Assembly (NCBI GenBank): GCA_020002185.1
Contig: CM034533.1
Coordinates: 38,410,409 to 38,474,408 of the forward strand
DNA from: Paraescarpia echinospica
Taxonomy: Eukaryota > Annelida > Polychaeta > Sabellida > Siboglinidae
Length of the DNA: 64,000 nucleotides
Reading direction: 5' to 3'
Each line of letters begins with the position of its first letter. Position 1 is the stretch's first letter. A model generated the notes under the pieces. That model was given only the letters and a program-made list of their open reading frames with translations. It had not been told where the DNA came from and made no database searches. Below, one piece after another: positions 32,132-56,200 of the stretch. The position numbers and the translations under genes were made by a program.

Positions 32132-32287
32132 CTCACAAGTCTCGTGACACGAGGGACATACAATACTTCCCCTGTGCAGCCAGTCATTCTGGATGCTGTG
32201 AATCTGCAGGATCTGGCTACGGTGACGGCAGTAATACTCCTTGCCCGACACAATGATCACAAGGCCATCCACCGCACTACACCTGTA
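32132..32287 (-). CDS. LMLN: LMLN exon n (last recognised)
   Basis: Acceptor GTTGTACAG|TACAGGTG, phase 0. Encodes [32 protein letters not shown] and [12 protein letters not shown]; donor GAG|GTAAGT. A second AG five bases in (TACAG|G) would shift the frame. The acceptor is the seed of the 44-base array. Confidence 0.93.
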
Positions 32288-35200
32288 CTGTACAACACAA
32301 AGTACTCACTCAACATCTCTCTACATCTCTCCACACCTGTACTGTACAACACAAAGTATTCAGTCAACATATCTCTATATATATACTGTACAACACAAAG
32401 TACCCAGTCAACATATATCTACATCTGTACTGTATGACACAAAGTACCCAGTCAACATCTCTTTACATCTGTACTGTATGACACAAAGTACCCAGTCAAC
32501 ATCTCTCTACATCTGTACTGTACAACACAAAGTACTCAATCAACATATCTCTACATCTGTACTGTTTGACACAAAGTACCCAGTCAACATCTCTCTACAT
32601 ATGTACTGTATAACACAAAGTACTCAGTCAACGTGTCTCTACATCTGTACTGTACAACATAAAGTACTATGTCAACATATCTCTACATCTGTACTGTATG
32701 ACACAATGTAATCAGTCAACATCTCTCTACATCTGTACTGTAGAACACAAAGTACTCAGTCAACATGTCTCTACATCTGTACTGTACAACATAAAGTACT
32801 ATGTCAACATATCTCTACATCTGTACTGTATGACACAATGTAATCAGTCAACATCTCTCCACATCTGTACTGTAGAACACAAAGTACTCAGTCAACGTGT
32901 CTCTACATCTGTACTGTACAACACAAAGTACTATGTCAACATATCTCTACATCTGTACTGTATGACACAATGTAATCAGTCAACATATCTCTACATCTGT
33001 ACTGTATGACACAATGTAATTAGTCAACATCTCTCTACATCTGTACTGTAGAACACAAAGTACTCAGTCAACGTGTCTCTACATCTGTACTGTACAACAT
33101 AAAGTACTATGTCAACATATCTCTACATCTGTACTGTAGAACACAAAGTACTCAGTCAACGTGTCTCTACATCTGTACTGTACAACATAAAGTACTATGT
33201 CAACATATCTCTACATCTGTACTGTATGACACAATGTAATCAGTCAACATCTCTCTACATCTGTACTATAGAACACAAAGTACTCAGTCAACGTGTCTCT
33301 ACATCTGCACTGTACAACATAAAGTACTATGTCAACATATTTCTACATCTGTACTGTACGACACAATGTAATCAGTCAACATATCTCTACATCTGTACTG
33401 TAGAACACAAAGTACTCAGTCAACATCTCTCCACATCTGTACTGTACAACACAAAGTATTCAGTCAACATATCTCTACATCTGTACTGTAGAACACAAAG
33501 TACTCAGTCAACGTGTCTCTACATCTGTACTGTACAACATAAAGTACTATGTCAACATATCTCTACATCTGTACTGTATGACACAATGTAATCAGTCAAC
33601 ATCTCTCTACATATCTCTACATCTGTAGTGTACAACACAAAGTACCCAGTCAACATCTCTCTACATCTGTACTGAACAACACAAAGTACTATGTCAACAT
33701 ATCTCTACATCTGTACTGTATGACACAATGTAATCACTCAACATCTCTCTACATCTGTACTGTAGAACACAAAGTACTCAGTCAACGTGTCTCTACATCT
33801 GTACTGTACAACATAAAGTACCATGTCAACATATCTCTACATCTGTACTGTACGACACAATGTAATCAGTCAACATCTCTCTACATCTCTACTGTAGAAC
33901 ACAAAGTACTCAGTCAACATCTCTCCACATCTGTACTGTACAACACAAAGTATTCAGTCAACATATCTCTACATCTGTAGTGTACAACACAAAGTACCCA
34001 GTCAACATCTCTCTACATCTGTACTGTACAACACAAAGTACTATGTCAACATATCTCTACATCTGTACTGTATGACACAATGTAATCAGTCAACATCTCT
34101 CTACATCTGTACTGTAGAACACAAAGTACTCAGTCAACGTGTCTCTACATCTGTACTGTACAACATAAAGTACTATGTCAACATATATCTACATCTGTAC
34201 TGTATGACACAATGTAATCAGTCAACCTCTCTCTACATCTGTACTGTAGAACACAAAGTACTCAGTCAACGTGTCTCTACATCTGTACTGTACAACATAA
34301 AGTACTATGTCAACATATCTCTACATCTGTACTGTACAACACAACGTAATCAGTCAACATCTCTCTACATCTGTACTGTAGAACACAAAGTACTCAGTCA
34401 ACATCTCTCCACATCTGTACTGTACAACACAAAGTACTCAGTCAACATATCTCTACATATTTACTGTAGAACACAAAGTACTCAGTCAACATGTCTCTAC
34501 ATAATATGTACTGTAGAACACAAAGTACTCAGTCAACATATCTCTATATCTGTACTGTACAACACAAAGTACCCAGTCAACATATCTCTACATCTGTACT
34601 GTACAACACAAAGTACCCAGTCAACATATCTCTACATATATACTGTACAACACAAAGTACTCAGACAACATATCTCTACATCTGTACTGTTGAACACAAA
34701 GTACTCAGTCAACGTGTCTCTACATCTGTACTGTACAACAGAAAGTACTCAGTCAACATATCTCTACATCTGTACTGTACAATACAAAGTACCCAGTCAA
34801 CATCTCTCTACATCTGTACTGTACAACACAAAGTACTCAATCAACATATCTCTACATCTGTACTGTTTGACACAAAGTACCTAGTTAACATCTCTCTACA
34901 TATGTACTGTATAACACAAAGTACTCAGTCAACATATCTCAACATCTGTACTGTACGACATAATGTAATCAGTCAACATCTCTCTACATCTGTACTGTAA
35001 AACACAAAGTACTATGTCAACATATCTCTACATCTGTACTGTATGACACAATGTAATCAGTCAACATCTCTCTACATCTGTACTGTAGAACACAAAGTAC
35101 TCAGTCAACGTGTCTCTACATCTGTACTGTACAACATAAAGTACTATGTCAACATATCTCTACATCTGTACTGTACGACACAATGTAATCAGTCAACATC

Positions 35201-53200: not shown

Positions 53201-56200
53201 CATAACGTACACCTAATACCTCACTCACCAGGGCATGTAGGACCCAGTCTACCCACCAGGGCATAATGTACACCTAATAACTCACTCACCAGGGCATGTA
53301 GGACCCAGTCTACCCACCAGGACATAACGTACACTTAATACCTCACTCACCAGGGCATGTAGGACCCAGTCTACCCACCAGGGCATAATGTACACCTAAT
53401 AACTCACTCACCAGGGCATGTAAGACCCAGTCTACCCACCAGGACATAACGTACACCTAATACCTCACTCACCAGGGCATGTAGGACCCAGTCTACCCAC
53501 CAGGACATAACGTACACCTAATACCTCACTCACCAGGGCATGTAGGACCCAGTCTACCCACCAGGGCATAAAGTACACCTAATACCTCACTCACCAGGGC
53601 ATGTAAGACCCAGTCTACCCACCAGGACATAACGTACAGCTAATACCTCACTCACCAGGGCATGTAGGACCCAGTCTACCCACCAGGGCATAACATACAC
53701 CCAATACCTTGCTCACCAGGGCATGTAGGACCCAGTCTACCCACCAGGGCATAACGTACACCTAATACCTCACTCACCAGGGCATGTAGGACCCAGTCTA
53801 CCCACCAGGGCATAACGTACACCTAATACCTCACTCACCAGGGCATGTAAGACCCAGTCTACCCACCAGGGCATAATGTACACCTAATAACTCACTCACC
53901 AGGGCATGTAGGACCCAGTCTACCCACCAGGACATAACGTACACCTAATACCTCACTCACCAGGGCATGTAGGACCCAGCCTACCCACCAGGACATAACG
54001 TACACCTAATACCTCACTCACCAGGGCATGTAGGACCCAGTCTACCCACCAGGGCATAATGTACACCTAATACCTCACTCACCAGGGCATGTAAGACCCA
54101 GTCTACCCACCAGGACATAACGTACAGCTAATACCTCACTCACCAGGGCATGTAGGACCCAGTCTACCCACCAGGACATAACGTACACCTAATACCTCAC
54201 TCACCAGGGCATGTAGGACCCAGTCTACCCACCAGGACATAACGTACACCTAATACCTCACTCACCAGGGCATGTAGGACCCAGTCTACCCACCAGGGCA
54301 TAACGTACACCTAATACCTCACTCACCAGGGCATGTAAGACCCAGTCTACCCACCAGGACATAACGTACACATAATACCTCACTCACAAGGGCATATAGG
54401 ACCCAGTCTACCCACCAGGACATAACGTACACCTAATACCTCACTCACCAGGGCATGTAGGATCCAGTCTACCCACCAGGGCATAACGTACACCTAATAC
54501 CTCACTCACCAGGGCATGTAGGACCCAGTCTACCCATCAGGGCATTACGTACACCTAATACCTCACTCACCAGGGCATATAGGACCCAGTCTACCCACCA
54601 TGGCATAACATACATCTAATACCTCACTCACCAGGGCATGTAGGACCCAGTCTACCCACCATGGCATAACATACATCTAATACCTCACTCACCAGGGCAT
54701 GTAGGACCCAGTCTACCCACCAGGGCATAACATACACCTAATACCTCACTCACCAGGGCATGTAGGACCCAGTCTACCCACCAGGGCATAATGTACACCT
54801 AATACCTCACTCACCAGGGCATGTATGACACAGTCTACCCACCAGGGCATAATGTACACCTAATACCTCACTCACCAGGGTATGTAGGACCCAGTCTACC
54901 CATCAGGGCATTACGTACACCTAATACCTCACTCACCAGGGCATGTAGGACCCAGTGTACCCACCAGGGCATAATGTACACCTAATACCTCACTCACCAG
55001 GTCATCTAGTACCCAGTCCACTCAGAAGGGCACATAGTACGTCACCCATTCATTCATCCAGTACCTCGTCTACTCACCAGGGCATGCAGTATCTCATGTT
55101 TGAGTGTGGCGTGCATCTGATGTAAATTGTGTGGCTCAGTTGATATGTCATTAGGACACAGGTTCACGTAGCCTGCCACTGGCCTGAAACACAGTATACT
55201 TGAAGTCGTTTTAAAATATCAACAACAGCAACGTGAACTGACGAACAAACAGGCAGCTGGGTGTATATTGATGGCTGCAGCTCAGATATTGATACCTAAA
55301 ATTCCTAAATGCAGCTAAAGTAAAACACTAATAAAATGTAATGGGTAAGATCAATTACTGATAGACTTGACTTGAGATATAAAAGCAAACTTCTAGCACA
55401 TTACAATATTGTACAAGCTTGTACAAGTAAATCAAAGTAAGCACAAATATTACAACAAATAGCATAAAGAACAGTATTATTACAAAGAAAAAGAAACCGG
55501 AAATTGTAAAATTACTACAGGTAAAATTAAGAAACCACTACACGTAAATAGCTGAAACGCCACCACAAAAAACAGCCACATCAAATGAATTATTTCTATA
55601 AACCTCAGGTGATAAAATATTTGACATAAATCATTGCTAGAAAGCAATAATAAAATCCTACTTAGTTGTTGGAAAAGCTGGCAATGCAGGCTCAGCTGAA
55701 AGCAGAACACAAAACCACCTAGAACCCCTAGACCCAGACTACTGTCACACTACCTCAAACAAATTAAACAAACCCACCCATGTAAACTCCCATTACATCT
55801 CTGGTGACCACAGACGCAGATCTTACATTTGATATTTGGAAGCTTTATCCCATACAAGATGAGAGAATGATGTTTGTGCGTACCTGTCAAGAGCGCCCTC
55901 TAGCTGACAGTAAGCTGCGTACGCTACGGCTGATCCGACAGTGCAGCGTTCCTCGTTTGTTGCTGACACAAAGAGAACAAAGTCAGCGTTGTCGACCCCC
56001 GGGCCCCCGTAACCAACCTTCTTATACTTGGAGCCAATGCGGGCGATGCGACAGACCTACAAAAGGACAATATGCTCATCATGATTTAACACTACTTTAC
56101 AATTTGTTTTATCGCTTAAACGATATATTTTTATAATGTTTTACTAATTACTAAACTATTAATTATTACATTTATTAGTTAGTATTATTGCTATATCATC

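Follow-up and report, generated by a model that had tools for sequence, protein, structure and literature searches.

Tandem arrays that cross exon borders in the LMLN gene of the tubeworm Paraescarpia echinospica, and the frequency of such arrays in a genome sample

Why do several tandem arrays in the introns of a single gene begin at, or run into, its exons? The question is raised by LMLN of the tubeworm Paraescarpia echinospica, in a 64,000-nucleotide (nt) stretch of DNA (GenBank assembly GCA_020002185.1, contig CM034533.1, positions 38,410,409 to 38,474,408) that is here called the window. An initial annotation of the window had proposed that four LMLN splice sites are the seeds or edges of intronic arrays and that some mechanism amplifies splice junctions. 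The present analysis indicates that the LMLN arrays are likely to be border-crossing minisatellites of the type called 'mirages' in amphioxus, born by duplication of a border, enlarged by later expansion and tolerated by splicing. Formation of border arrays was found to be common in this genome, at donors and acceptors alike, in a sample of 264 exon borders.

The gene was mapped by placing the Ridgeia piscesae protein, except for its first ~60 residues, on the window and by setting exon edges from splice signals. This gave 15 exons on the minus strand between 59574 and 32132, and the spliced translation was 94% identical to the Ridgeia protein and 91% identical to that of Lamellibrachia satsuma, as fits a vestimentiferan (Annelida, Siboglinidae). 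The edges of exon a and of a small exon near 43921-43990 are a few bases off splice signals, and border arrays are found at neither. For exon n the acceptor that keeps the reading frame is at 32287, reading TTGTACAG/TACAGGTGTAG across the border, with which MYRCS in the Ridgeia protein agrees.

Three arrays cross an LMLN border (Table 1). At the exon e donor the units carry CATGCCCTG followed by a GTGAGT-like sequence, which is the exon end and its donor, as the initial annotation had claimed, and 16 nt of the exon fall under the repeat mask. In this array 110 matches (up to 4 mismatches) to a donor-spanning 14-mer were counted, with spacings that mostly alternate between 28 and 33 nt; the 61-mer is therefore a dimer of 28 and 33 nt. 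GT is retained in 104 of the 110 donor-like copies, and on a simple weight matrix, built with frequencies that we approximated ourselves, 50 of the copies equal or exceed the real donor. On inspection, with no statistic applied, copies beside the exon are degraded, in contrast to an almost uniform interior, where most positions are 91-100% conserved and a few 0.51-0.75.

At the exon l donor the unit consists of ~19 nt of exon end (CTACTGCCCATTTGTACAG) and ~10 nt of intron; the array overlaps the exon by 26 nt, and its copies repeat the exon end and donor, ..DYCPFVQ/GTATGTTAA. Here it is the copies far from the exon that are degenerate, again by inspection and with no statistic. A 28-29-base array had been reported to copy the end and donor of an exon "k", and the 29-bp array does exactly this; "k" is probably the exon here called l, because it is the end of exon l, ..DYCPFVQ/GTATGTTAAC, that the array repeats. 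At the exon n acceptor the evidence is stronger than was claimed, copying of the acceptor alone having been noted: the units contain TTTGTGTTGTACAG/TACAG[AG]TGTAG and so hold ~11 exon bases each along with the acceptor, and the mask reaches 18 nt into the exon. AG stands at the acceptor position in 91 of 96 units (real site included), and the median score of the units equals that of the real site.

The fourth array of the initial annotation, at exon g, does adjoin the acceptor, ending 4-7 nt short of it, but its unit holds no exon sequence. Thus three of the four proposed cases cross a border and one only abuts, and a second abutting array, TG-rich, starts 17-25 nt from the exon c acceptor. 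When the detection used for the genome sample was applied to 31-60 kb of the window, 12 array segments were obtained, of which 3 cross a border, 2 abut one (within 30 nt) and 7 do neither, 2 of these 7 being further pieces of the TG array.

Table 1. Arrays and exons of LMLN discussed in the text (window positions)
Feature	Position	Strand	Basis
Border-crossing array, exon e donor; ~55 x 61-bp units	51682..55093 (mask), 51690-55032 (repeat call)	-	
Border-crossing array, exon l donor; ~16 x 29-bp units	44196..44665 (mask), 44202-44659 (repeat call)	-	
Border-crossing array, exon n acceptor; ~95 x 44-bp units	32270..36518 (mask), 32323-36518 (TRF)	-	
11-bp array abutting exon g acceptor	49979..50194 (mask), 49982-50191 (repeat call)	-	
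TG-rich simple-repeat array, three mask segments, abutting exon c acceptor	57126..58125	-	
29-bp array in m-n intron, away from borders (internal control)	37172..39683	-	
37-bp array in e-f intron, 190 nt from exon f (internal control)	50995..51197	-	
Exon c	56991..57108	-	Ridgeia protein match, splice signals
Exon e, ends ..HEILHAL at source donor	55078..55183	-	protein match, splice signals
Exon g	49857..49974	-	protein match, splice signals
Exon l, ends ..LADYCPFVQ at source donor	44640..44729	-	protein match, splice signals
Exon n (YRCSAVDG..), last exon found	32132..32287	-	reading frame, Ridgeia protein

The direction of copying can be read from the coding content. HEILHAL of exon e is unchanged in Ridgeia and Lamellibrachia, and DYCPFVQ of exon l is unchanged in Ridgeia (the Lamellibrachia model stops earlier). 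As the exon halves of the units encode conserved protein, the exon was the source: the LMLN border arrays were derived from exon borders and not the reverse. The predicted Ridgeia protein reads through the e, l and n borders normally and is silent on arrays in Ridgeia. Elsewhere in the genome, a pair of paralogous exons can be compared: L003 shares 84 of its first 100 exon bases with L001, an M8 peptidase exon whose border is crossed by an array, and the L003 border is single, with no array in the adjacent 300 nt.

To account for such arrays we propose that a segment of ~25-80 nt spanning an exon/intron border would undergo tandem duplication, probably through replication slippage or through microhomology-mediated repair between short repeats flanking the border. 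The seeds have the same short word on both sides, TACTG at e and ACTAC at l, which fits either route (two cases seen by eye, with no control). Selection would go on maintaining the exon-adjacent copy, which still encodes protein and serves as the splice site, and the remaining copies would become intron, free to expand and to be homogenised, whether through slippage or through unequal exchange. Such an array may then be tolerated because splicing, acting by exon definition, would pick the copy nearest the exon.

How often borders carry arrays was determined in exons located by Pfam searches of the 1.08-Gb assembly (scaffolds C1-C14). The families were M8 peptidase (8 of 11 matches taken), kinesin (70 of 128), myosin (20 of 76), tyrosine phosphatase (PTP; 20 of at least 151) and tyrosine kinase (20 of 150). 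These 138 exons were taken roughly in list order, and part of the sample was picked by hand so as to avoid unplaced contigs, long open frames and a number of close neighbours. Removal of 6 exons more than 90% identical to another left 132 exons with 264 borders. Borders were set by a splice-site matrix beside the homology match; 22 of the 264 scored weakly and were kept, and for the L044 donor, whose array was by then known, the position was chosen manually. Expected crossings assume a 40-nt target, the background being 29 array edges in 83 kb of intron. The edge test was repeated with N excluded, the kept loci holding no N, and Tandem Repeats Finder (TRF) served as an independent array detector.

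Arrays cross 11 of the 264 borders (~4%, about 1 in 25), namely the acceptors of L001, L107, L110, L144 and L163 and the donors of L044, L047, L099, L102, L158 and L164, and at another 11 (a further ~4%) an array starts no more than 30 nt away. The numbers expected were 3.7 crossings and 2.7 abutments, giving ratios of 3.0 and 4.1, which ranged over 2.7-3.4 and 2.9-5.5 respectively in six parameter sets. Crossing and abutting edges taken together gave a ratio of 3.5 (locus bootstrap 95% 1.9-6.4). Because 8 unexpected edges were found at 150-200 nt, the background was widened to take in intron as far as 200 or 250 nt at every locus, and the joint ratio fell to 3.3. With TRF, 12 abutments were seen against 4.2 expected (P 0.0014). 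In an earlier version of the test the counts had been 12 among 264 borders and 172 among 11,690 pseudo-borders placed in introns. Also in favour of a border origin, 20-mers centred 60-80 nt inside the exon had copies in the adjacent intron at 0 of 264 borders at each distance. The enrichment of array edges at borders that had been anticipated is thus supported in this sample, where the contrary result, no enrichment, was not obtained.

With 6 donors and 5 acceptors crossed, the two kinds of border are hit about equally, which lends no support to a donor-specific process. By family the crossings are 6 of 132 borders in kinesins, 3 of 38 in phosphatases, 1 of 14 in M8 peptidases and 1 of 40 in kinases. 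The 80 borders of kinesin exons L129-L168 (4 crossed and 4 abutted; 5 and 5 by TRF) were sampled after border arrays had first been seen and before the edge statistic was fixed, and the evidence for the border excess is mostly exploratory. Measured against the sample, LMLN is only mildly richer in border arrays and not clearly exceptional: 5 of its 30 borders are crossed or abutted, against ~2.5 expected at the sampled border rate and ~0.7 at the sample's intron array-edge rate (0.00035/nt).

Inspection of the sampled loci gave the same kind of unit as in LMLN, in many cases more plainly. Exon-containing units were recognised by eye at 10 borders (L001, L044, L047, L099, L107, L110, L144, L158, L163 and L164). 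The 66-bp unit of L047 consists of ~52 nt of kinesin exon and 14 nt of intron; the ~46-bp unit of L144 joins an intron end to ~28 nt of exon (MNEHSSRSHS); and the 40-bp unit of the M8 paralogue L001 comprises 17 nt of intron and 23 nt of exon. At L163 the unit is the acceptor with the start of the kinesin P-loop, and at L107 the acceptor and the phosphatase signature SAGVGRTG after it are present in two additional, decayed copies. The conserved motifs found inside units are what we take to be SRSH of kinesins (L144, L158), the kinesin P-loop (L163), kinesin ..SLLALGQVVEALKNGQ (L047), and NMVQTQ (L099) and SAGVGRTG (L107) of PTPs, so that in the sample, too, copying went from exon to array. The script scored L102 as a crossing case (edge -2), yet by eye no exon copy is present there, nor at L159. 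Short or single exon copies were seen by eye at L097, L113, L139 and L130, the last having one extra border copy and not being scored as crossing.

The arrays of L044 (78 bp) and L047 (66 bp) leave the exon frame open for more than 200 bases past the donor, so that gene predictors may misannotate such arrays as coding repeats.

Two comparisons were set aside. A first border test, in which repeats covered borders less often than they covered an average locus position, was discarded since it compared borders with array interiors. It also suffered from miscalled borders (the L044 and L047 frames run through arrays, and the L001 match began inside its array) and from an N run at L041 that was scored as repeat, L041 later being removed as a duplicate. 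Recent duplicates were also compared for array birth, and the one apparent case examined was an N run. The pair of recent duplicates at 14.04 and 14.14 Mb on C6 includes L041, which enters N from about 2408, a gap or masked stretch.

A bolder reading is that borders are genuine birth sites of arrays in this lineage, DNA-level duplications within ~40 nt of a border, on both intron sides, arising several-fold more often than elsewhere. This we put forward tentatively, as possible but short of probable. Several observations weigh against the border-duplication account as a whole, this reading included. By TRF the crossing excess is weaker (10 against 5.8 expected, P 0.07), and the crossing expectation itself depends on the assumed 40-nt target. 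No crossing was found among the 40 myosin borders. Array coverage climbs smoothly from exon to intron with no peak at the border, from 0% at 60 nt inside the exon through 3.8% at the border to 8-9.5% from 40 nt into the intron (to 120 nt); borders are therefore not richer in array sequence than introns, and it is array edges that concentrate there. Nor is the edge background flat, as the 150-200 nt bin holds the 8 first edges mentioned above, 2.1% per 30 nt and about half the border rate. Homogeneity is alike in border arrays and other intron arrays (median match 90% and 91.5%, P 0.96), so that array age gives no hint of a hotspot. Finally, three successive copies of CAGGTRAGT matched 628+728 (1356) times genome-wide against 801+1037 (1838) for the reversed string, which counts against a donor-driven process; this is a weak test, the triplets being counted per unit and not per array: the ~100 places listed are all from C1 and belong to roughly a dozen arrays.

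Most of these points would be expected if there were no birth preference at all. Tandem duplication would then be uniform, exonic duplications would be purged and border-crossing ones would survive, making mirages the tail of a general minisatellite load. We consider this a serious candidate, if short of probable. The 8-9.5% of windows lying in arrays at 40-120 nt into introns and the smooth fall of coverage to zero within ~60 nt of the exon speak for it, and the non-significant TRF crossing excess, the unenriched donor motif, the equal homogeneity and the second local edge excess at 150-200 nt all suit it. Uniform birth with exon purging would give a smooth rise of coverage but would not crowd edges into the first 30 nt, where their density is 2.9-5.5 times that of the background across the six parameter sets, 2.9 times with TRF and 3.9-4.0 times with the wider backgrounds. 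From 30 to 150 nt the rate is at background (0.8-1.2% of borders per 30 nt, against 1.1% far into introns). The proposed mechanism that amplifies splice junctions thus finds support in the concentration of edges at borders but not in the tests of its specificity (coverage, TRF crossings and donor triplets), and a mechanism acting specifically on splice junctions is possible but unproven.

An edge excess could also come about if arrays arose in mid-intron and loss of unique intron DNA brought them up against the exon as an uncrossable wall. The abutting arrays (LMLN g and c, L048, L060, L131, L159) would be explained in this way, but units with ~11-53 nt of coding sequence, found at 3 LMLN and, by eye, 10 sampled borders, cannot be, and as a general explanation the wall is unlikely. 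In favour of RNA-templated repair or R-loop-linked breaks at exon borders, which the initial annotation had suggested, there is the border concentration. The units seen by eye pass straight from exon to intron, making spliced RNA an unlikely template, and donors and acceptors are about equally affected, so we regard these routes as very improbable.

A selected function, in which repeated splice sites act as decoys or as regulators of splicing or transcription, seems more improbable still: most units do retain their splice dinucleotides, but GT in the exon e array is not specially conserved, since most positions there are 91-100% conserved, AG in the exon n array (1.00/0.95) is not above neighbouring positions, and unit lengths include both multiples and non-multiples of three. 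An assembly artefact, with repeats collapsed or expanded beside exons, is scarcely credible given the many independent loci, differing units, coding content in register and LMLN exons intact against the Ridgeia protein, even if array copy numbers rest on one assembly. Border duplication followed by expansion is the likely origin of the LMLN arrays.

If borders are indeed birth sites, thousands of introns, extrapolating from the sampled rate, would grow from their edges, and such genes would carry tens of competing near-identical splice sites. Taken with amphioxus, border-seeded arrays would then be a recurrent mode of animal intron evolution. Two questions become testable: whether exon borders are hotspots of tandem duplication, and how the spliceosome chooses among 50-100 near-identical sites, for which these arrays are natural tests of exon definition. 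The arrays are also relevant to how introns grow, to duplicated splice sites as a possible source of new exons or introns, and to errors of gene prediction where a genome is rich in arrays.

Some further features were noted in passing. The 13-bp array (TACATGTTACAAT) at 26917-27431 of the window has 39.6 copies with 99% match and is more uniform than the window's other long arrays. At 62080-62540, upstream of LMLN, lies a sequence like the tail of what we presume to be a LINE-type reverse transcriptase. Besides the window's own, 10 peptidase M8 exon matches, on C3, C5, C10, C13 and C14, represent leishmanolysin-like paralogues. The PTP exon matches, at least 151, are in many cases clustered (C7 ~45.8-46.0 Mb; C2 ~36.6-36.8 Mb), which suggests a large PTP expansion, and similar myosin-head matches at C14 15.5-16.0 Mb and C11 ~21.3 Mb suggest tandem myosin duplications.

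Exon-border minisatellites in amphioxus, which the initial annotation had mentioned, are real. Mirages are minisatellite-like tandem duplications of exon/intron boundaries, described in Adh3 and the globins BflGb6 and BflGb9; they occur at either border type, with units of 10-160 bp of which most contain splice signals, and show length instability (PMC3087553). In the same account reverse-transcription PCR suggests normal splicing, the mechanism is called unclear, and the phenomenon is held to be possibly general in cephalochordates (PMC3087553). Similar repeats are reported in amphioxus PGBD5, with mention of TnC (PMC3902484). The tubeworm arrays share the mirage features that can be read from sequence. 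The units of LMLN e, l and n (not g) hold both exon and intron sequence, and both border types are represented in LMLN (donors e and l, acceptor n) as in the sample. Most units, not all, keep AG or GT, and by inspection interior units are homogenised and edge units diverged (near the exon at e, distally at l). They differ in their annelid host and in size, with up to ~95 units here against the 6 and 3 given for two BflGb6 haplotypes. The tubeworm case, known here from the sequence of one assembly, has in addition been measured over 264 borders against an intron background.

Related phenomena are further removed. In intron gain by tandem genomic duplication, a duplicated AGGT yields a second copy of the splice signals (PMC3443670) and a new intron arises inside an exon, whereas in the tubeworm existing introns grow at their edges. 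Large minisatellite arrays in intron 1 of earthworm metallothionein (PMC12783039) are likewise annelid and intronic, border-crossing units not being described in that paper's passages on them. In the open-licence literature, with molluscs and annelids among the groups covered, no report of border arrays outside amphioxus was recognised, which is not proof of absence. Ordinary intronic minisatellites have the same unit sizes and homogeneity, to which the tubeworm border units add conserved coding sequence and a splice site. The border-array structure itself is thus known, and what is new is its occurrence in an annelid, its frequency and its test against an intron background: the amphioxus mirages were reported gene by gene, and their counterpart at about 1 in 25 sampled borders of a distant annelid makes them a measurable property of a genome.

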